A DNA stretch of 64,000 nucleotides, taken from NCBI RefSeq assembly GCF_000384295.1, contig NZ_KB913037.1, forward strand, positions 6,573,533-6,637,532. Reading direction: 5' to 3'. Under the pieces are notes generated by a model, which saw nothing but the letters and a program-made list of their open reading frames with translations, had not been told where the DNA came from and did not search any database. Both the position numbers and the translations under genes were made by a program. Within the stretch, counting starts at the first letter, position 1. Every line of letters begins with the position of its first letter. Shown here piece after piece: positions 8,000 to 34,735 of the stretch. Origin of the DNA: Amycolatopsis balhimycina FH 1894 (lineage in GTDB: Bacteria; Actinomycetota; Actinomycetes; Mycobacteriales; Pseudonocardiaceae).

Positions 8000-9024
8000 A
8001 ACTCCTTCTCCACCAGCGGAAGCACCTCGGTGCCCAGGAGTTCGATGGCTCGCATGACGTCCGCGTGCGGCACGCCGGACCAGTCCATCTGCATCGCGTA
8101 GCGGTCCGCGCCGGTGAGCTTGCCGACCTCGATCAGCCGCTCGGCGATCTCCTGGGGGCTCCCGACGAACAACGCCTGGGCGCCGTCGGTGTAGGAGTCG
8201 TACTCGGCGCGGGTCGGGACCGCCCAGCCGCGGGCGCGGGCACCGTACTTCATCGTCTCGAGCCAGTACGGGTAGAACGTCTCCTTGGCGTCCTGCGACT
8301 TCTCGGCGATGAAGCCGATCGCGCTCATGGTGACGCGCAGGTCCGCGGGGTCCTGTTCGCCCGCCTCGCCGGCGTGGCGGTAGAGGTCGACCAGCGGGGC
8401 GAAGCGCTCGGGACGGCCGCCGATCACCGCGTACACCACCGGCAGCCCGAGCAGCCCGGCGCGGATCGACGACTCGGGGTTGCCGCCGGTGCCGACCGAG
8501 ATGCGCAGGCGCCCGCCGTACGGCCGGGGCAGGATCCGCGCGTTCTCCAGTGGCGGGCGGAACCTGCCGGACCAGGTCAGCGGGTCTTCGCGGTCGATGC
8601 GCAGCAGCAGTGCCAGCTTCTCCTCGAAGAGCTCGTCGTAGTCGCCGAGGTCGTTGCCGAACAGCGGGAACGACTCGGTGAACGAGCCGCGGCCGGCGAG
8701 CAGCTCGGCGCGGCCGTGGCTGAGCTGGTCGAGCGTCGTGAACTGCTGGTACACGCGGACCGGGTCCTCGGTGCTCAGCACGGTCACCGCGGAGCTGAGC
8801 GTGATCTGCCGGGTGACGCTCGCCGCCGCGGCCAGGACCGTGCCCGGGCTGGAGATGGCGTACTGGTCGAGGTGGTGCTCGCCGAGGCCGTAGAAGCCGA
8901 GGCCCAGCTCGTCGGCGAGCTTGATCCGTTCGAGCGTGTTGGCCAGCGTCCGCGCGACGGTGAGCTGCTCGCCGGTGCCCGGGTCGGGCGCGCGGTCGCC
9001 GAAGCTGTAGATGCCGAGTTTCAT
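7996..9024 (-). CDS. LLM-class flavin-dependent oxidoreductase (luciferase-like)
   Basis: The predicted protein is 342 aa, a normal length for a bacterial luciferase-like TIM barrel that uses reduced FMN or F420. It has the early strand MKLGIYSFGD, the LGFYGLGEHH motif and GRAELLAGRGSFTESFPLFG phosphate-binding region of this family. The start is 36 nt downstream of the stop of the amino acid dehydrogenase gene, so it is probably the last gene of the tetR-dehydrogenase-LLM operon. The substrate is unknown. Confidence 0.85.
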   Translation of the reverse strand: MKLGIYSFGDRAPDPGTGEQLTVARTLANTLERIKLADELGLGFYGLGEHHLDQYAISSPGTVLAAAASVTRQITLSSAVTVLSTEDPVRVYQQFTTLDQLSHGRAELLAGRGSFTESFPLFGNDLGDYDELFEEKLALLLRIDREDPLTWSGRFRPPLENARILPRPYGGRLRISVGTGGNPESSIRAGLLGLPVVYAVIGGRPERFAPLVDLYRHAGEAGEQDPADLRVTMSAIGFIAEKSQDAKETFYPYWLETMKYGARARGWAVPTRAEYDSYTDGAQALFVGSPQEIAERLIEVGKLTGADRYAMQMDWSGVPHADVMRAIELLGTEVLPLVEKEF

Positions 9025-9060
9025 AGAGCGTTCAACTACCGAACGGGACGAATCGTTCCC

Positions 9061-10233
9061 TCAGCCGAAGCGGGCCTGGATGGCCTCCAGGTTCTGCTCC
9101 GACAGCCGCAGGGCCGCGGCGCGAAGGCTCAGGCCGTCCAGCGTCGCCACCTCGAACATGCTGGTCACCAGCCCGATCATGCGGGTCCGGACCTTGCCGA
9201 ACGCTTCGCCGGCGTCCGCGCCGACATCGCCGAACAAGGTCCACCACCACCACGAGTTGGTCGCCGAATTGGCCACGAAGTCCGGCACCACCCGGATGCC
9301 GCGGGCGTCCAGCAGCTCTTCGGCATCCGGGGTGACCGGCAGGTTCGCGGCCTCGACGATGAGCTTCGCGTCGATCTTGGCCTGGTTGTCGCTGTCGACG
9401 CAGTAGGAGATCGCCGCCGGGACGAGGACCTCGGCCGGCACGTCCAGCCACGCCTCCGGCGGGAGCAGCTCGTCGCCGGGCTTGAGGTTGTCGCGGTCGA
9501 TCCCGCCGAAGCGGTCGCGGTGCCGCAGCAGGTTTTCGATGTCGAGCCCGGCGGGGTTGACGACGACCCCGCGCACGTCCGAGACCCCGACCACGCGCAG
9601 CCCCGCGTCGGCGAGGAACCGCGCGGTCGCACCGCCCATCGCGCCGAAGCCCTGCACCACCGCCCGGTTCTCGTTCTTGTCGAGACCCAGCATTTCGAGC
9701 CCGGTCAGCGTGGCCTGCGCGACGCCGAGCCCGCCGACCAGCTCGTCGAGCCCCAGGCCGCCGACCTCGATCCGGAACGCCTCCGCCAGCCGGGCGGTCG
9801 CCGCCTCCCGGTCTTCGAGCAGCGGGTAGACCGCCTGCACCGGGCTGAGCAGGCCGATCTCCGCGATCACGCCGTCGATGACGTCCTGGCGCAGGCCCAG
9901 GTCCTCGCCCATGGTCCAGTACTGCTCGATCAGCGGGCGCATGGCGCCCAGGTAGCGGGCGACGACGTCGCGGGCGCGCTCGTCATACGGGTCGAAGTCG
10001 ATGCCGCCCTTGGCGCCGCCCAGCGGCACGTACCGGCCGTCGGGGTCGTAGTTGAGCCCCTCCTTGAGCGTCATGCCCCTGGCCAGGCCGCGGACCTCGA
10101 AGAGCGTGCAGCCGCGGCGCATCCGCAGGCCCCCGCTGGCCACGCCGCGGACGAGCCGGTCGATCACCAGGTAGCCACGGCACCCGGTGACCGGGTCGGT
10201 CCACGCCACTTCGAGCAAGGCCTGTTCCGTCAT
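9061..10233 (-). CDS. Glu/Leu/Phe/Val-type amino acid dehydrogenase
   Basis: The predicted protein is 390 aa; AGGAGG lies just before GTGATG, and the ATG at 10233 is chosen although an open frame runs further upstream. It catalyses NAD(P)-dependent oxidative deamination of an amino acid or the reverse. The dimerisation/catalytic domain holds the substrate lysine K57 (MTLKEGLNYD) and catalytic lysine K75 (PLGGAKGGI). The C-terminal Rossmann domain carries VQGFGAMGGATARFL. GGAKGGI instead of GGGKGGI marks a divergent subfamily. It lies 20 nt after tetR and 36 nt before the LLM gene. Confidence 0.88.
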   Translation of the reverse strand: MTEQALLEVAWTDPVTGCRGYLVIDRLVRGVASGGLRMRRGCTLFEVRGLARGMTLKEGLNYDPDGRYVPLGGAKGGIDFDPYDERARDVVARYLGAMRPLIEQYWTMGEDLGLRQDVIDGVIAEIGLLSPVQAVYPLLEDREAATARLAEAFRIEVGGLGLDELVGGLGVAQATLTGLEMLGLDKNENRAVVQGFGAMGGATARFLADAGLRVVGVSDVRGVVVNPAGLDIENLLRHRDRFGGIDRDNLKPGDELLPPEAWLDVPAEVLVPAAISYCVDSDNQAKIDAKLIVEAANLPVTPDAEELLDARGIRVVPDFVANSATNSWWWWTLFGDVGADAGEAFGKVRTRMIGLVTSMFEVATLDGLSLRAAALRLSEQNLEAIQARFG

Positions 10234-10998: not shown

Positions 10999-11053
10999 TG
11001 TCATGAACGACTCTTTCCTGTCGTCCGACGAGGTGAACGACTCGTTCATGACA
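10999..11053. repeat. Dispersed imperfect palindrome, TGAACGACTC family (copy A)
   Basis: The outer 12 bases (TGTCATGAACGA) are perfectly inverted; the inner arms carry a few mismatches. The left half is nearly identical to the left arm of the copy at 21906. It lies downstream of the epoxide hydrolase gene. Confidence 0.7.
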
Positions 11054-21035: not shown

Positions 21036-21908
21036 ATGACGTCACACCGGCCGGAGGTGGTCTTCCGGGGCCGCCGCATGCCCGGCGACCGCGCCCTGGT
21101 GATGGCCATCGTCAACCGCACGCCGGATTCGTTCTACGACAAGGGCGCGACGTTCGCCGGGAACGCGGCCAGGGACGCCGTCGACCGCGCGGTCGCGGCC
21201 GGTGCCGACATCGTGGACATCGGCGGGGTGAAGGCGGGCGAGGGGCCCGAGGTCGACGTCGACGAGGAGATTCGCCGGGTGGTGCCGTTCGTCGCCGAGG
21301 TGCGCGACCGCCACCCGGGGCTGGTCATCAGCGTCGACACCTGGCGGCACGAGGTCGGCAGGCAGGTCTGCGAAGCGGGTGCCGACCTGCTCAACGACAC
21401 CTGGGCGGGCGCCGACCCGAAGCTGGTCGAAATCGCCGCCGAGTTCGGCGCGGGCTACGTCTGCTCCCACGTCGGGGGCATGCCGGTCCGGACCGACCCG
21501 TACCCCGCGCCGACCCCGGACCGGCCCTTCTGGCCCCGCTACGACGACGTCGTCGCGGACGTCGTCGCCGAGCTGACCACCGCGGCCGAGCGGACCGTCG
21601 CCGCCGGGGTCCCGCGCGGCGGCGTGCTCGTCGACCCGACCTTCGACTTCGGCAAGAGCACCCGGCACGGCCTTGAGCTGCTCCGGCACTTCGACCGGCT
21701 GGTGGCGACCGGCTGGCCGGTGCTGGTCGCGCTGTCGAACAAGGACCTCATCGGCGAGACCCTGGACGTCGAGGCCCACGACCGCCTGACGGGCACCCTC
21801 GCGGCGACGGCGATCGCGGCGCACGCCGGCGCCGCGGTCTTCCGCGCCCACAACGTCCGGGAGACGCGGGAAGCGGTGGAAGCGGTGGCGGGTTTCGCGA
21901 TGCGGTGA
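21036..21908 (+). CDS. Dihydropteroate synthase homologue (FolP2-like)
   Basis: The predicted protein is 290 aa from ATG 21036 (GTG 21027 and ATG 21030 are also in frame behind GGCAGG). The DHPS TIM barrel shows NRTPDSF (canonical NVTPDSF), DIGGVKAG, SVDTWRHEV, LLNDTW, DPTFDFGKST and a late HAGAAVFRAHNVRET. Canonical DHPS joins pteridine pyrophosphate to p-aminobenzoate. The variant motifs resemble the second mycobacterial copy (Rv1207), whose DHPS activity is doubtful. No other folate gene is nearby. The stop codon lies inside a long palindrome. Confidence 0.85.
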   Translation: MTSHRPEVVFRGRRMPGDRALVMAIVNRTPDSFYDKGATFAGNAARDAVDRAVAAGADIVDIGGVKAGEGPEVDVDEEIRRVVPFVAEVRDRHPGLVISVDTWRHEVGRQVCEAGADLLNDTWAGADPKLVEIAAEFGAGYVCSHVGGMPVRTDPYPAPTPDRPFWPRYDDVVADVVAELTTAAERTVAAGVPRGGVLVDPTFDFGKSTRHGLELLRHFDRLVATGWPVLVALSNKDLIGETLDVEAHDRLTGTLAATAIAAHAGAAVFRAHNVRETREAVEAVAGFAMR

Positions 21909-21950
21909 ACGACTCTTTCCTGTCGTCAGAAGACAGGAAAGAGTCGTTCA
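21906..21950. repeat. Dispersed perfect palindrome, TGAACGACTC family (copy B), likely bidirectional terminator
   Basis: Two perfect 19-bp arms (21906-21924 and 21932-21950) flank a 7-nt loop. It starts at the DHPS stop codon and lies between convergent genes. Confidence 0.8.
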
Positions 21951-26923: not shown

Positions 26924-27074
26924 CGCGTGCTGGAAACCGGAACTCGCGTGATCGAACCCGTAACTGGCGTGATTGAAGCCGTAACTCGCGAGTTACGGCT
27001 CTGATCACGCGGGATACGGCTTGGATCACGCCAGTTGCGTCTTGGATCACGCGAGGTACGGCCTGGATCACGCG
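26924..27074. repeat. 21-bp repeat array with a central inversion
   Basis: Three head-to-tail units (26924, 26945, 26966; consensus CGCGTGATyGAAsCCGTAACT, 21 bases) are followed, after a 4-base CGCG centre, by four units in the opposite orientation (26991, 27012, 27033, 27054). Units differ at a few positions. The whole can fold into a large cruciform. It lies between two genes read leftwards, directly downstream of the EamA transporter stop. Confidence 0.85.
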
Positions 27075-27080
27075 AGTCGT

Positions 27081-28580: not shown

Positions 28581-28637
28581 ACGTCGTGAACGACTCGTTG
28601 ATGACGTCGGATGACATGAACGAGTCGTTCACGACGT
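28581..28637. repeat. Dispersed palindrome, TGAACGACTC family (copy C), likely bidirectional terminator
   Basis: Arms of about 23 bp (ACGTCGTGAACGACTCGTT...) are inverted with one mismatch. It lies between the convergent marR and MBL hydrolase genes. Confidence 0.8.
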
Positions 28638-29589: not shown

Positions 29590-29749
29590 GGTGTCCTCCC
29601 CTGAACTGACGAAGCGGTTAACGACGGTGGCCGGGCCAGGTTGCGCTTTCCCCGGGAATCTTCGGGGCCGGGAGCCCCTTCGGCAATCCTTCAAATTTCG
29701 ATCGGTTGAACGGTCGATAATTTTCTCGGACCGATCATCGGCGCAGGTC

Positions 29750-29787
29750 TTGACAGTCGATCTCGACCGTCCATACTGGTATATACC
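29750..29787 (+). promoter_or_regulatory. PTS promoter P1 with operator 1
   Basis: A consensus TTGACA -35 (29750-29755) is followed after 17 nt by ATACTGGTATATACC (29773-29787), whose core GGTATATACC is a perfect palindrome. It resembles the ACTGGTCTAGACCA-type sites of GntR/HutC regulators. The -10 position overlaps the operator. Confidence 0.65.
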
Positions 29788-29817
29788 TTTATGGGAGGGT
29801 CCGGGAAACACCGAGGG

Positions 29818-29878
29818 GGCTTCGCGCTCGCGGGCCGACGGCAGGTCTGAGGGGTCCTACCGTCGGCCGCGCGAAGCC
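29818..29878 (+). other. Strong stem-loop in the PTS leader
   Basis: GGCTTCGCG pairs with CGCGAAGCC, and inside it GGCCGACGG pairs with CCGTCGGCC. It lies between promoters P1 and P2 and could attenuate P1 transcripts or act as a terminator. No T-run follows. Confidence 0.6.
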
Positions 29879-29908
29879 GTTGGTCCGGATGGCCGGTCAC
29901 GGGCAGTA

Positions 29909-29937
29909 TTGACACAGATACTGGTACGAACCAGTAT
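29909..29937 (+). promoter_or_regulatory. PTS promoter P2 with operator 2
   Basis: A second TTGACA (29909-29914) is followed by ATACTGGT-ACGA-ACCAGTAT (29918-29937), a perfect 8-bp inverted repeat overlapping the expected -10 region. Confidence 0.7.
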
Positions 29938-29964
29938 GTCTCCTTGCCGGCCGGGAGGAGACAC

Positions 29965-30441
29965 ATGGCGGGGGAACACGTCCGGATCGACAACCGGCTC
30001 ATCCACGGTCAGGTCACCGTCGCGTGGACCCGGCGGCTCGGCGTACGCCGGCTGCTGGTCTGCAACGACGACGTCGCCGCCGACGACCTGCAGCGGATGC
30101 TGCTCCCGCAGGCCGCCCGCGGCCTGCCGACCGACGTGCTGTCGGTCGCCGACGCGCTGGCCGCACCCGCCGGCCGGGACGTCATGATCATCGCGCAGCA
30201 CCCCGAGGACGCGTTCCGCCTCGTCGAAGGCGGACTGCGGCCCGAGGTCGTCAACGTCGGCAACGTCGCGCCGCGGCCCGGCGCCACGTTCACCATGGTG
30301 ACCCGCTCGATCGCGGTCACCGCGGACGAGGCCGACGCCTACCGGAAGCTCGCCGCCGCGGGCATCCCGCTGGTCACCCAGCTGATGCCCCAGGACAAGC
30401 CGACCGAATTCGTCCCGTTGCTCGACCGGAAAGGGCTCTAG
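29965..30441 (+). CDS. PTS mannose/fructose/sorbose-family EIIB
   Basis: The predicted protein is 158 aa; GGGAGGAG lies 4 nt before the ATG. Mannose-family IIB accepts phosphate on a histidine and passes it to the sugar during transport. The signature RIDNRLIHGQV is present with H14 as the phosphorylation site, and the fold continues with CNDDVA and LMPQD regions. It is the first gene of a IIB-IICD-IIA-hydrolase operon. Mannose-type PTS is well known in Firmicutes and enterics and less usual in high-GC actinomycetes. The sugar is unknown. Confidence 0.9.
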   Translation: MAGEHVRIDNRLIHGQVTVAWTRRLGVRRLLVCNDDVAADDLQRMLLPQAARGLPTDVLSVADALAAPAGRDVMIIAQHPEDAFRLVEGGLRPEVVNVGNVAPRPGATFTMVTRSIAVTADEADAYRKLAAAGIPLVTQLMPQDKPTEFVPLLDRKGL

Positions 30442-30447
30442 CCCCGC

Positions 30448-32076
30448 ATGCTCGTCGCGTTGGCCCTGACCATCTGGGCGATCTACTGCACCTACGACGG
30501 GCTCGGCCCGTTCCTCATCTACGCCCAGCGCCCGCTGATCGCCGGCTCGGTGGCCGGGCTGATCACCGGGCACCCGCTGCTCGGCCTGCTGATCGGCGCG
30601 ACGCTGGAGCTGGCGGCGCTGGGCGTCTACACCTACGGCGGCGCGACGATCCCGGACTACCAGACCGGCGCGATCGTGGGCACCGCGCTGGCCGCGGGCG
30701 CCGCCGGCGACGTGTCCGCGCAGGCCGCGATCGGGATCGGCGTCGGGCTGCCGGCGGCGATCCTGCTGGCCGCGCTGGACCCGGTCGGCAAGATGGTGAC
30801 CACCGCGCTGGTGCACCGGGCCGACGGCTACGCCGCCGACGGCAACGCGCGCGGCCTCGCGATGATCCACTGGGTCAGCCTGGTCCCGTGGGTCGCGGTG
30901 CGCGCCATCCCGACGTTCCTCGCCGCGCTCGCCGCGTCCGGCGGGCTGGTCAAGGACATCACCGCGAGCATCCCCGCGGGGTTCGTCCAGGGCATGACCC
31001 TGGCCGGGTCGCTGCTGCCCGCCGTCGGGTTCGCGCTGCTGCTCGGCATGATGGAGCTGTCGAAGTACTGGTACCTGCTGCTGATCGGGTTCGTCGGGTT
31101 CGCCTACCTGCACCTGCCGGTCCTGGGCATCGCGCTGGTCGGCGTCGCGGTCGCGATGCTGTTCGTGACGCTCAAGCGCGACGAGCCCGTGCTCGTGGTG
31201 CCCGAGGCCGCGAACGCTGCCGAGGAAAAGTCCGCCGCCGATCCCCGGCTGACCAGACAGGACCTGCGCCGCGCGTTCCGCCGGTACTTCTGGTCGAGCC
31301 AGATCTCCTGGAACTACGAACGGATGCAGGCGCTCGGGTTCGCGTACTCGATGGAACCGGTGCTGCGCAAGCTGTACCCGGACAAGGCCGACTACACCGC
31401 CGGGCTGCAGCGGCACCTCCAGTTCTTCAACACCTCGGTGCTGGTCGGCGGCCCGCTGATCCTCGGCTCCACGGTCGCGCTCGAGGAGGCCGGCACGCCG
31501 AAGTCGGCCGCGAGCACCAAGGTCGCACTGATGGGGCCGATGGCCGGCATCGGCGACACCGTCGTCTTCGCGCTGTACAACAGCATCATCTTCACCATGG
31601 GCGCGTCGTGGGCGCTGCAGGGCAACTGGCTCGGCCCGGCGTTCGCCGCGGTGATGGTGCTGGTCCCGTACGCGCTCGTGCGGCGCTGGCAGTTCGGGTT
31701 CGCCTACCGCGAAGGCAAGCGGCTGGCCGGGCACCTCGCCGCCGGCGCGCTCGCCCGCGTCGCGCAGGGCGCGACCGTGCTGGGGTTCGTCGTGCTCGGC
31801 GGGTTCATCCCGTCGATCGTCAAGGTGGTCACCACGCTGACCTACCGGCAGACCACCACGGTCCAGGGGAAGCCGGTGACGCAGTCGGTCGCCATCCAGG
31901 ACCGGCTCGACGAGCTGCTGCCCTTCCTGCTCCCGGTGCTGGTCACCGCCGGGGTCTACCTGTTGACGGTCAAGGCCCGGCTGCGGCCGGTCTGGGTCAT
32001 CGCCATCGTCGTCGTCGCCGGGGTCGTCCTGGGGTGGCTCGGCTGGTTCGTGCCCGCCCCGGCGAAGAGTTCCTGA
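30448..32076 (+). CDS. PTS mannose-family IIC-IID fusion permease
   Basis: The predicted protein is 542 aa. Residues 1-245 are an EIIC domain (GLGPFLIYAQRPLIAG, GATLELAALGVYTYGGATIPDYQ in parts) and about 265-542 an EIID domain (LRRAFRRYFWSSQISWNYERMQALGFAYSM in parts, LMGPMAGIGDTVVFALYNSI), joined by a charged Ala/Glu-rich linker (246-262). These are normally two proteins that together form the sugar channel, so the gene is a natural fusion. It starts 6 nt after the IIB stop with a weak ribosome binding site. Confidence 0.9.
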   Translation: MLVALALTIWAIYCTYDGLGPFLIYAQRPLIAGSVAGLITGHPLLGLLIGATLELAALGVYTYGGATIPDYQTGAIVGTALAAGAAGDVSAQAAIGIGVGLPAAILLAALDPVGKMVTTALVHRADGYAADGNARGLAMIHWVSLVPWVAVRAIPTFLAALAASGGLVKDITASIPAGFVQGMTLAGSLLPAVGFALLLGMMELSKYWYLLLIGFVGFAYLHLPVLGIALVGVAVAMLFVTLKRDEPVLVVPEAANAAEEKSAADPRLTRQDLRRAFRRYFWSSQISWNYERMQALGFAYSMEPVLRKLYPDKADYTAGLQRHLQFFNTSVLVGGPLILGSTVALEEAGTPKSAASTKVALMGPMAGIGDTVVFALYNSIIFTMGASWALQGNWLGPAFAAVMVLVPYALVRRWQFGFAYREGKRLAGHLAAGALARVAQGATVLGFVVLGGFIPSIVKVVTTLTYRQTTTVQGKPVTQSVAIQDRLDELLPFLLPVLVTAGVYLLTVKARLRPVWVIAIVVVAGVVLGWLGWFVPAPAKSS

Positions 32077-32184
32077 TGCGGCCAAAAGGAGGCCGCCCCC
32101 CGAGCGGCACGTAACCGTTGCTACGAAGCCATTCGGCCGTGACTGTGGCCGGATCGGGAACAATCGGCACAGTAGGAGTCCGCC

Positions 32185-32583
32185 ATGACCGTTCCGATCA
32201 TCCTCGCCGGGCACGGCCGCCTGCCCTCCGGCGTGGGGGAAGCCGCCGAGATGATCCTCGGCCCGCAGGCGCGGCTGAAGATTTGCGAGCTGGGTCCGCA
32301 CGAGAGCCCGGACGAGTTCGGCGCTCACGTGCTCGCCCTGGCCGGCGACGCCGCCGAGGTGCTCGTCCTCGCCGACCTGCACGGCGGCTCGCCGTTCAAC
32401 ACCGTCCGCGCGCTCGCCGCCGCGCCCGCCACGCGCCCGCGCCTGGAGCTGGTGTCGGGGCTGAACCTGCCGATGCTGCTGGAAGTCCTGCTGCACACGA
32501 CCGGCGACGTCACCGAGCTGGCCGGGGTGGCTCGCGCCGCCGGCCGCGACGGCGTCGTCGACGTCCTGGAATCGACCTGGTGA
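32185..32583 (+). CDS. PTS mannose-family EIIA
   Basis: The predicted protein is 132 aa; AGGAG lies 7 nt before the ATG. It accepts phosphate from HPr on H10 in IILAGHGRLPSG and passes it to IIB. The LADLHGGSPFNTV and GLNLPMLLEVL motifs match the mannose IIA fold. A 108-nt gap separates it from the IICD gene, and its stop overlaps the next start (GTGA). No EI or HPr gene is in the window, so general PTS components must be encoded elsewhere. Confidence 0.9.
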   Translation: MTVPIILAGHGRLPSGVGEAAEMILGPQARLKICELGPHESPDEFGAHVLALAGDAAEVLVLADLHGGSPFNTVRALAAAPATRPRLELVSGLNLPMLLEVLLHTTGDVTELAGVARAAGRDGVVDVLESTW

Positions 32584-33923
32584 CCGCCGCGCTGATGCTC
32601 GCCGCGCAGGACGTCCGGATCACGCCGGGACCCGGGCACCCGCTCGGCGGCTACCTGGCCCGGCACGGCGTCGCGACCGGCACGCACGACGACCTCGAGG
32701 CGTCGCTGATCTGGCTGTCCACCGAGGACGATCCCGGCGTGCTGTGGGTGGCGCTGGACGCGCTGGCGGTCGACGCCGGCCTCACCAGCACCCTGGCCGA
32801 CGCCGTCGCCGCGGCGGTGGGCATCGGCCCGGAGCGGGTGCTCGTCTGCGCGTCGCACACGCATTCCGGCCCCGAGGGCTGGACCGGGCCGCTGCACCCC
32901 GGGCTGCCGGGGCAGCGCGACCCCGGGCTGGTCGGCCGCATGGCGGAGAAGGTCACCGGCGCCGCGTTGCGGCTGCGCGCCTGCCGCGGGCGGGTCCGCG
33001 CCCGCTGGCACGCGGGTTCGACCCAAGCCGTCGGCGGCAACCGCTACCGGCCGGACGGGCCGCACGACACGTCGTTCGGGGTGCTCGAACTGCGCCGCGA
33101 CGACGGCTCCCCGGCCGCGCTGCTGTTCGACTACGCCAGCCACCCGACCGTGCTGGGCCCCGACAACCTCGCCTGGTCGGCGGACTGGCCGGGCGCGACG
33201 CGCCGCGAGCTGGCCACGCTGGTCGGGCAGCCGGTCGCGGCCTTCCTGCAGGGCGCGGCGGGGGACGCCAGCTCCCGGTTCGTGCGGCGCGGCCGCAACC
33301 ACGAGGAGGTCCGCACGCTCGGCGGGCACCTCGCGACGTCGATCGCGCGCACCCTCGCCGAGGCGGGGGCACCGTCGTCACCGGCGGCGACCGGCCCGGT
33401 CCGGCTGACCCGCTCCGCGCTGCACCTGCCCTACCGGGACGTGCCGTCCCTGGAGGACAGCGTCGAGCTGCGGGAGGCGGCCGAGGCCGAGTGGCAGCGT
33501 GAACTGGCGAGCCACGGCGAGGACCACCCGGCCGTCCGGATCGCGCAGACCCGGTACGAAGGGTGCGCGATGCTCGCCGTGATGGCGGCCAGCAACCCGC
33601 CCGCCGGCTGTGCCGAAGTGCCGGTCACGGTGGTGTCGCTCGGGGAGATCGCCTGGCTGCACACGCCGTTCGAGCTGTTCGCGTCGCTGGGGCTGCGGAT
33701 CCGGCAGGGCAGCCCGTTCCGGCACACGCGGGTGATCGGCTACACCGACGGCTACCTCGGGTACCTGCCCGACGCCGCGGGCCACCGGGAGGGCATTTAC
33801 GAGTCCTACGTGACGCTGTTCCGCCCGGAGGCCGCGGACGTGCTGGTGGAGCACTGCCTGAAGCAGCTGCGGGCCCACCATCACACCGGCCGGTGTGATT
33901 CGGTCCCGGCTCGGGGGGCCTAG
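32580..33923 (+). CDS. Intracellular neutral/alkaline ceramidase-like hydrolase coupled to the PTS
   Basis: The predicted protein is 447 aa, GTG start overlapping the IIA stop. The zinc-amidase core of the neutral ceramidase family is visible: PLGGYLAR near the start, H93/H95 in CASHTHSGPEG and the second histidine in LFDYASHPTVLG. Known neutral ceramidases are secreted, about 650-700 aa, with a C-terminal Ig-like domain; this one has no signal peptide and lacks that domain. Translational coupling to a sugar PTS suggests it cleaves an amide (or similar bond) in the imported, phosphorylated compound. This is inference. Confidence 0.8.
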   Translation: MTAALMLAAQDVRITPGPGHPLGGYLARHGVATGTHDDLEASLIWLSTEDDPGVLWVALDALAVDAGLTSTLADAVAAAVGIGPERVLVCASHTHSGPEGWTGPLHPGLPGQRDPGLVGRMAEKVTGAALRLRACRGRVRARWHAGSTQAVGGNRYRPDGPHDTSFGVLELRRDDGSPAALLFDYASHPTVLGPDNLAWSADWPGATRRELATLVGQPVAAFLQGAAGDASSRFVRRGRNHEEVRTLGGHLATSIARTLAEAGAPSSPAATGPVRLTRSALHLPYRDVPSLEDSVELREAAEAEWQRELASHGEDHPAVRIAQTRYEGCAMLAVMAASNPPAGCAEVPVTVVSLGEIAWLHTPFELFASLGLRIRQGSPFRHTRVIGYTDGYLGYLPDAAGHREGIYESYVTLFRPEAADVLVEHCLKQLRAHHHTGRCDSVPARGA

Positions 33924-34687
33924 GCCGGGCTGCGCCGTGCCTGGGTGAAGACGGTGTAGCGGTCCGCGCGGTAGAGGGACCGGCCCGCCTCGATGACGCC
34001 GCCGCTCTGGTCGTGCAGCGTGCCTTCGATGATCAGGCACGGCTGGGTGGCCTCGATGCCGAGCAGGGCGGCGTCACCCGAGTTCGGCAGCACCGCCGAA
34101 ATCGCCGTGTCGTTCCACTCCGCGTGCACGCCCCAGCGTTCCTCGATCGTGCGGTGCAGGGACTCCGTTTCCCAGTCGAACAGCTCGATGCCCGGGAACC
34201 GGTCCACGGACAGGTTGGTGCGCTCGACCGCGAACGGCTCGTTCTCGACGAAGCGGAGCCGTTCGAGCCGGAACACCCGGGCGCCGGGGGGCACGTTGAG
34301 CCGTCCCGCGATGCGCGGGCCCGCGCTCTCGACTTCGGCGTGCAGCACCTTCGTCTTCGGCACCACGCCGCGGGCCTGCATGTCCTCGGTGAACGAGGTC
34401 AGCATGTCGATGTGCGCCGCCTGGCGTTCCGCGGTGAACGTCGCGGTGCCGTGCTGGCGGTACAGGACGCCGTCCGCGACGAGCCGGTTGATCTCCTGCC
34501 GGACGGTGCCGCGGGCGACCCCGAAGTGCTCGGCGAGGAACCGTTCCGACGGCATCAGCCTGCCGGGACCCGCCTCCGTCGCGACGCTTTCCAGGATTTC
34601 GCGGAGCTGGTCGCCCTTCGGCCGCCCCGGCTGCAGCGCGTCCGGAAGGCGCAGATCGCTCGCGGCAACGTGTTTCGGACGGGGCAT
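33920..34687 (-). CDS. GntR/HutC-family regulator of the PTS operon
   Basis: The predicted protein is 255 aa. The N-terminal winged helix (PSERFLAEHFGVARGTVRQEINRLVADGVLYR in parts) and C-terminal UTRA ligand domain (about 90-250, with FRLERLRFVENEPFAVERT in parts) are typical of sugar-phosphate-sensing HutC regulators such as DasR and NagR. It ends convergently against the ceramidase-like gene with a 4-nt overlap. A CCAGTAT half-site lies 5 nt upstream of its own start, matching the operators before the PTS operon, so autoregulation and PTS repression are likely. Confidence 0.9.
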   Translation of the reverse strand: MPRPKHVAASDLRLPDALQPGRPKGDQLREILESVATEAGPGRLMPSERFLAEHFGVARGTVRQEINRLVADGVLYRQHGTATFTAERQAAHIDMLTSFTEDMQARGVVPKTKVLHAEVESAGPRIAGRLNVPPGARVFRLERLRFVENEPFAVERTNLSVDRFPGIELFDWETESLHRTIEERWGVHAEWNDTAISAVLPNSGDAALLGIEATQPCLIIEGTLHDQSGGVIEAGRSLYRADRYTVFTQARRSPA

Positions 34688-34691
34688 CTCT

Positions 34692-34698
34692 CCAGTAT
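34692..34698. promoter_or_regulatory. Half-site matching the PTS operators, upstream of gntR
   Basis: CCAGTAT repeats the right arm of the ATACTGGT/ACCAGTAT operator at 29918-29937 and lies just before the gntR start codon. Confidence 0.45.
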
Positions 34699-34735
34699 GT
34701 CGCGCCGCGGGGTGGGAGTGACACCCGCCGGTGGG

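Follow-up and report, generated by a model that had tools for sequence, protein, structure and literature searches.

Why should a sugar-importing phosphotransferase system (PTS) of the mannose family be coupled to a protein with the fold of a lipid amidase? This question is raised by a locus of Amycolatopsis balhimycina FH 1894, the genome of which comprises 10.86 Mb on a single contig. We analysed a stretch of 64,000 nucleotides of this genome (contig NZ_KB913037.1, positions 6,573,533 to 6,637,532), referred to as the window, in which all coordinates are given unless another locus is named. On its plus strand, the genes for IIB (29965..30441), a IIC-IID fusion (30448..32076), IIA (32185..32583) and a 447-amino-acid hydrolase with a ceramidase fold, hereafter HYD (32580..33923), follow each other in this order, with IIA and HYD overlapping by GTGA. 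The gene for a GntR/HutC (UTRA) regulator (33920..34687) lies on the minus strand, convergent with HYD, so that the ends of the two genes meet. We propose, with a probability of roughly one half, that the substrate is taken up as a 6-phosphate and that HYD subsequently N-deacylates this amino-sugar phosphate in the cytosol in a zinc-dependent reaction.

An initial annotation, made from the sequence alone, had described a PTS cassette translationally coupled to an intracellular ceramidase-like hydrolase and facing a HutC regulator, and profile matches and coordinates bear out this arrangement. IIB matches PF03830 (125 bits), IIA PF03610 (60.7 bits) and the 542-amino-acid membrane subunit PF03609 (189 bits) as well as PF03613 (267 bits) within a single open reading frame (ORF). 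All four mannose-family PTS domains (IIA, IIB, IIC and IID) are thus present, and the regulator matches PF00392 and PF07702. The top NCBIfam match of IIA is AgaF, with 70.4 bits below the cut-off of 130, and none of the listed NCBIfam scores of IIA, IIB and IICD reaches the cut-off for a PTS subfamily with known specificity. Elsewhere in the genome EI was found twice over cut-off, and an HPr-like ORF, recognised by its motif only, lies beside one of the two copies. Among named organisms, HYD and the entire cassette have their nearest relatives in Amycolatopsis, the best being A. vastitatis (L014) with 97% identity in HYD; a search against plasmids gave zero matches.

The fold of HYD matches that of neutral ceramidases (2zws/2zxc, 4wgk) across 386-392 of its 447 residues. 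With 26.3 bits HYD stays under the curated cut-off of PF04734 (32.1), to which the source database nevertheless assigns it (PF04734.19). The zinc ligands are present as H93, H188, E365 and Y395, which we take to be the counterparts of ceramidase H97, H204, E411 and Y448, and H95, R155 and Y407 are further active-site residues. H93, H95, R155, H188, E365 and Y395 are kept in 74 of 74 aligned rows, and Y407 in 71 of them, with Phe in the remaining three. As the initial annotation had stated, HYD has no C-terminal domain: it is a single-domain protein, and its alignment with 2zws reaches no further than about residue 489 of that structure. A signal peptide was not seen by eye, no predictor having been run. 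TIGR00221, the NagA family, does not match HYD, and the two matches of the genome to this model lie at 4.97 and 3.84 Mb. Fold and catalytic residues together suggest that HYD cleaves an amide.

Relatives of HYD were collected in a species-level scan with one genome per species, in which two peptide patterns gave 245 confirmed matches; the best 80 were kept and correspond to 75 loci. As selection was based on peptide patterns, too few of the outer relatives that lack FLQGAAGD or the His motif were captured, and the 28 outer loci, several of them on short contigs, are no fair sample of the superfamily. Neighbouring genes were identified with tblastn (E 1e-7, 45% of the query), for the 75 loci up to a distance of 6 kb and for 20 later ones across the stretch that was fetched. 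A tree of 54 loci and the window (55 rows) separated a clade of 46 rows from an outer group of nine; left out of it were L015 at a contig end, L017 with HYD in two pieces, and L057-L075. For gene content, the clade was counted as 47 loci (L001-L046 and L049, including L015 and L017 and excluding the window) and compared with the 28 others. In L017, from Amycolatopsis sp. 2-2, HYD matches as two pieces at 8001-9330 of that locus and is apparently interrupted.

The clade is set apart by residues as well as by neighbours. S231, R233 and R236 occur in 46 of 46 clade rows and in all 14 distant members described below, but these letters are found in only 0, 4 and 2 of the 28 rows outside the clade. 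The resulting signature SxRxxR occupies the position of the lipid-pocket base of ceramidases. Mannose-PTS genes accompany HYD in 27 of the 47 clade loci and a BadF-type kinase gene in 18, both never occur together, and only two loci have neither, one with an ABC transporter (L038) and one with a SIS gene (L041). The closest NCBIfam model of the BadF-type kinase is an N-acetylglucosamine (GlcNAc) kinase, with a score far below the cut-off. Further neighbours in the clade are UTRA regulators (29 loci), the N-acetylmannosamine (ManNAc) 6-phosphate epimerase NanE (10), SIS proteins (8, in L026 more than 3 kb from HYD and on the opposite strand), ABC transporters (6), Cof-type HAD phosphatases (4), NagA (1, in L039) and NagB (1). 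None of the 28 outer loci has genes for a PTS, BadF, NanE, SIS, Cof-type HAD, NagA or NagB beside HYD.

The gene set is thus conserved beyond the window. Its order recurs in Amycolatopsis, Lentzea and a metagenome-assembled genome (MAG) of the Pseudonocardiales (L043). Loci of the Kibdelosporangium type (L019, L020, L044) have adjacent IIB, IICD and HYD genes without a recognisable IIA, and L045 is without a recognised regulator. The same kinds of genes occur in other orders in a Frankiales MAG (L039) and a Bacillota MAG (L049), and two Chloroflexota MAGs (L036, L040) show only IIA and IIB of the PTS on short contigs. Mapped on the tree, the PTS label requires at least four gains or losses on well-supported branches. 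The record of L020 is titled Rhodococcus rhodnii; its cassette is the Kibdelosporangium version, with which it also clusters in the tree, so that either the record is mislabelled or the cassette was transferred.

Whole-genome searches extended this circle. The S/R/R motif was present in 14 of 45 further loci (L082-L105, L155-L175), namely L082-L084, L161-L167, L169-L171 and L174. Thirteen of these (all but L164) and seven loci without the motif were fetched with their flanks as L184-L203, of which L202 had no HYD ORF and was dropped. The distant members with the motif (L184-L196 and L203) comprise 14 loci from 13 genomes; in L203, Gly-Asn replaces the Gly-Asp of the motif while the remainder is kept. 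All 14 have a BadF-type kinase and a SIS gene, 12 an ABC transporter, 12 a UTRA regulator, two NanE and none a PTS. In eight of them the SIS match starts nine bases after the HYD stop. The whole group of 61 loci hence includes 27 with a PTS, 32 with BadF, two with neither and none with both, together with SIS in 22, ABC transporters in 18 and NanE in 12. In five actinomycete loci (L197-L201) a SIS gene lies directly before an HYD gene whose product keeps the zinc ligands and carries QGCCGQxNTG instead of the arginine motif, both arginines being absent; neither PTS nor BadF was seen in the fetched stretch. HYD and SIS are thus partners beyond the 61-locus group, and L197-L201 represent a sister system to the group with the arginine motif.

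This company bears on what HYD acts upon. A substrate of the amino-sugar type is indicated because NanE, NagS-family SIS proteins, NagK-like kinases, NagA and NagB are encoded beside HYD in its relatives, and a phosphorylated one because PTS and kinase alternate there. A lipid ceramidase with an unrelated PTS as neighbour, to which the fold match would correspond, is scarcely credible: a PTS or sugar kinase adjoins HYD in 59 of the 61 loci, the C-terminal domain and a signal peptide visible by eye are missing, and the base of the pocket is recoded with arginines. It is also very unlikely that HYD cleaves an ester or lactone bond of a sugar phosphate instead of an amide. Such a reaction would fit, since knowledge of HYD is confined to its fold and metal site and the sequence of reactions in which it takes part is deduced, but HYD retains the residues that serve amide hydrolysis in ceramidases, among them the Ser of the amidase motif (motif described in the available part of PMC6952831). 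Another option is that the 6-phosphate is incidental, HYD acting on the sugar ahead of its phosphorylation or on a larger conjugate in which an amino sugar is amide-linked. With BadF kinases in 32 and ABC transporters in 18 of the 61 loci, an unphosphorylated form must exist in these organisms; the PTS partner, however, should deliver a phosphorylated sugar, and Arg233 and Arg236, invariant in the group, favour an anion, which makes this option improbable.

The recurrent SIS gene suggests a different order of reactions, in which an N-acetylhexosamine 6-phosphate first loses water through a NagS-family SIS protein and the resulting chromogen-type enamide is then deacetylated by HYD. For Streptomyces, the accessible text of PMC12680351 describes that NagS dehydrates GlcNAc 6-phosphate and that NagA deacetylates the product, 6P-chromogen I, in a side activity, which provides a precedent. 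SIS genes are found beside HYD in 22 of the 61 loci, with the nine-base spacing in eight of the 14 distant ones, and the window genome holds a gene of this family elsewhere. Ten SIS sequences, from nine HYD loci and the window genome, all keep H53, R64, E94, S119, S121, D179 and N228 of NagS. S54 is kept in eight of the ten, but S91, which is important in NagS, in three only, with Glu in L040. Moreover, clusters of Amycolatopsis, Lentzea, Kibdelosporangium and Kribbella have no SIS gene within 6 kb, and SIS relatives with 26-36% identity to NagS had negligible or no GlcNAc 6-phosphate dehydratase activity according to the same portion of PMC12680351. As S91 is mostly lost and distant relatives were without activity, a dehydration preceding deacylation stays a rival, and we regard it as unlikely.

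Among PDB structures, those nearest to the regulator are DasR of Streptomyces and, second, NagR of Bacillus, both of them GlcNAc regulators. The regulator is 36.5% identical to DasR (84 of 230 aligned columns). Nine of 14 residues of the DasR effector site, with roles taken from PMC4918961, are kept, including Thr99, Arg142, Arg144, Ser175 and Leu176 of the phosphate site. In NagR, Arg38 and Arg48 read the operator, as stated in the accessible section of PMC4333415. Counted on the structural match, these two arginines correspond to Arg49 and Arg59 of the regulator.

A candidate operator, the perfect palindrome ACTGGTACGAACCAGT (29920..29935, plus strand), ends 29 bases before the start of IIB and is the sole perfect match in the genome. 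We presume that it resembles the DasR site consensus (dre). The pattern ACTGGTnnnnACCAGT was found upstream of IIB in 18 of 18 loci (L001-L018), perfectly in 15 and with one mismatch in three. Two versions with an ABC transporter, L029 and L038, also have it in perfect form. L045 has it with one mismatch, and the three Kibdelosporangium-type loci, as well as L039 before IIC, with two. In the Kribbella, Chloroflexota, L043 and L049 clusters, no site with up to two mismatches was found upstream of the genes tested. A second, imperfect operator-like site, ACTGGTATATACCTTT (29775..29790, plus strand), is identical in 14 of 14 Amycolatopsis loci (L001-L010 and L014-L017). Across the window's genome, sites with up to one mismatch number 18, compared to 10 for a reversed control pattern, and no sugar cluster was seen at four of the 17 one-mismatch sites, where ORFs were inspected by eye.

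How far the cassette and HYD belong together was also evaluated at the genome level. Among 150 genomes of the window's family, EIID is present in six, from three genera, and strong HYD matches (641-686 bits) occur in exactly those six; 28 more genomes have weaker HYD matches, at least three of them of the kinase type. G093 and G147 of this family contain a second EIID locus. EIID is present in 12 of 394 genomes of the class, and the search detected an HYD linked to it in the window's genome only.

Several observations weigh against the proposed pathway. The other 11 EIID genomes of the class gave no PTS-linked HYD in this search; in seven of them HYD-like matches of lower score (131-149 bits) lie on a different contig or more than 1 Mb away, and six of the seven, G385 being the exception, have the motif and belong to the kinase type. 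The loci are phylogenetically clumped, with Amycolatopsis and Kribbella making up most of them, and the alternation of PTS and kinase is not significant when tested on independent pairs (median p of 0.5, three pairs on starred branches). The operon in the window has no amino-sugar enzyme gene besides HYD. As L197-L201 pair SIS with an HYD devoid of the arginines, the company of SIS does not require these residues. In the regulator, five of the 14 DasR effector positions are changed (Tyr98, Tyr177 to His, Glu193, Arg221, Val234), and Tyr177, Glu193 and Arg221 are ring contacts in DasR. Finally, NagA was matched in 19 of 19 HYD genomes searched, 17 of them over cut-off, and in L039 it is part of HYD's own cluster. 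Plain deacetylation of GlcNAc 6-phosphate therefore needs no HYD.

The last point also limits the idea that HYD is an extra GlcNAc 6-phosphate deacetylase that replaces or backs up NagA. The NanE, NagB and NagK-like genes beside HYD, and the cluster of L049 with NagB and NanE and without NagA, would fit such a role, but with NagA in all 19 carriers, over cut-off in 17 and adjacent to HYD in L039, we consider it quite unlikely. As a general replacement of NagA, HYD is ruled out by these 19 genomes, and its presence is not explained by an absence of NagA. Since NagA is available, HYD may instead take a sugar or an acyl group that is poorly processed by NagA, or an altered form of the sugar. We favour the former because the set of kinase, HYD and SIS resembles NagK-NagA-NagB or AgaA/AgaS; most likely, the substrate is a sugar of the ManNAc/GlcNAc series with a specificity poorly covered by NagA. 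In the window genome itself, a single NagA match exceeds the cut-off and a NagS-family SIS gene is present once, neither of them at this locus. NagB is sparser: three of the 19 genomes have it over cut-off, 11 below (G168 only just) and five not at all, and G150, G157, G161, G164 and G165 have NagA and zero NagB matches in whole-genome searches. Deamination in many of these organisms may therefore use another enzyme.

Taken together, the pathway that we propose would begin with the mannose-family PTS, which, with EI and HPr of the genome, would import an N-acylated amino sugar and yield its 6-phosphate. In the cytosol, HYD as a member of the neutral-ceramidase superfamily would hydrolyse the amide with a zinc-activated water and free the amine, Arg233 and Arg236 possibly holding the anionic substrate where ceramidases hold the lipid chain. 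In kinase-type relatives, the BadF kinase would make the phosphate and the SIS protein carry out the step that follows; kinase or PTS, HYD and SIS would thereby parallel the steps of NagK or PTS, NagA or AgaA, and NagB or AgaS. The UTRA regulator, a relative of DasR, would repress the operon at ACTGGTnnnnACCAGT until released by the sugar phosphate. Direct observation covers the gene set and its conservation, the catalytic residues, the operator, and EI and an HPr-like gene in the genome; import specificity, the phosphorylated state of the substrate, amide cleavage, the order of steps and repression are all deduced. The initial annotation had postulated an uptake-and-cleavage route for an N-acylated or amide-linked sugar entering as a phosphate. 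This was mostly right in kind, and of the conditions that it named as refuting, the two examined here, missing zinc ligands and a gene order not conserved elsewhere, both come out in its favour. The neighbouring genes in relatives now point to an amino sugar and a phosphorylated substrate, while a role for glycolipids found no support; the interpretation is thus partly supported, with its chemistry deduced.

At similarly even odds, the SxRxxR group constitutes a new family of cytosolic amino-sugar-phosphate amidases that arose from the ceramidase fold, without relationship to NagA, in an undescribed amino-sugar catabolic pathway of Actinomycetota, Chloroflexota and Bacillota. Uptake by PTS and by ABC transporter with BadF would be interchangeable in it, and the NagS-family SIS protein next to HYD may in some members be a dehydratase that makes the amide for HYD. 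Fold, transporter class and regulator class are each known; for their arrangement no literature precedent, and for ceramidase-like proteins no link to a PTS or to amino sugars, was found in open-licence titles and abstract openings. If correct, the proposal would give a lipid-amidase fold a second role in sugar metabolism. Deacylation of amino sugars would then be carried out by one more fold in addition to those of NagA and LpxC. The proposal would also provide a signature for such proteins in genomes that label them ceramidase or hypothetical, and connect them to a regulator with an operator like that of the GlcNAc regulator tied to antibiotic control in actinomycetes.

The window contains several repeats. 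A dispersed repeat of 93 bp (32069..32161), which has short inverted repeats at its termini, lies between IICD and IIA and provides the stop codon of IICD; it has at least 40 matches across the genome with 83-100% identity. L016 carries a copy (83% identical) at the equivalent site, and the gap length indicates none in the other 13 Amycolatopsis loci, including the nearest relative L014, so that the repeat was either lost in L014 or inserted twice. A second family of short dispersed palindromes is represented by GAACGACTCGTTC, paired copies or near forms of which form 43-base stretches at 11005-11047, 21907-21949 and 28588-28630. Eight of nine matches with up to one mismatch fall into these three stretches (0.08 expected), and the ninth, at 34232, is located inside the regulator gene. 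Two adjoining arrays of 21-base tandem repeats (26924-27077) directly follow the end of an EamA-like transporter gene, named by eye.

Compared with known systems, HYD shares its fold with the neutral ceramidases of Pseudomonas aeruginosa (2zws/2zxc) and human ASAH2 (4wgk). The ceramidase residues His196, Arg257, Tyr579, Tyr591 and Ser354, the last belonging to the amidase motif, are given in the available part of PMC6952831 and correspond to H95, R155, Y395, Y407 and S231 of HYD. The identity is 18%, however, and HYD differs in lacking a C-terminal domain and a visible signal peptide, in carrying an arginine-bearing GDxSxRxxR instead of GDVSPN, and in being coupled to sugar transport. DasR and NagR, the nearest structures to the UTRA protein, have a palindromic GG/CC operator in common with it, and both operator-reading arginines and five phosphate-site residues are kept; in contrast to DasR, five effector-site positions are altered and there is one perfect target site only. 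The SIS proteins beside HYD in its relatives belong to the same family as NagS of Streptomyces (SCO4393) and keep its four essential residues, whereas the operon in the window has no SIS gene, S91 is mostly changed, and distant NagS relatives were without GlcNAc 6-phosphate dehydratase activity (PMC12680351, text as available).

The aga/gam system of E. coli offers a further comparison. Its aga PTS is of the mannose family and AgaS is a SIS protein, and the IIA of the window best matches AgaF, though under the cut-off. The operon in the window differs from it in having neither AgaA nor AgaS and a hydrolase of a different fold. In the use of N-acetylgalactosamine by E. coli, as outlined in the accessible part of PMC3668189, the N-acetylhexosamine 6-phosphate is processed by the deacetylase AgaA and then by AgaS, a proposed deaminase/isomerase, and the order of PTS or kinase, HYD and SIS would parallel these steps.

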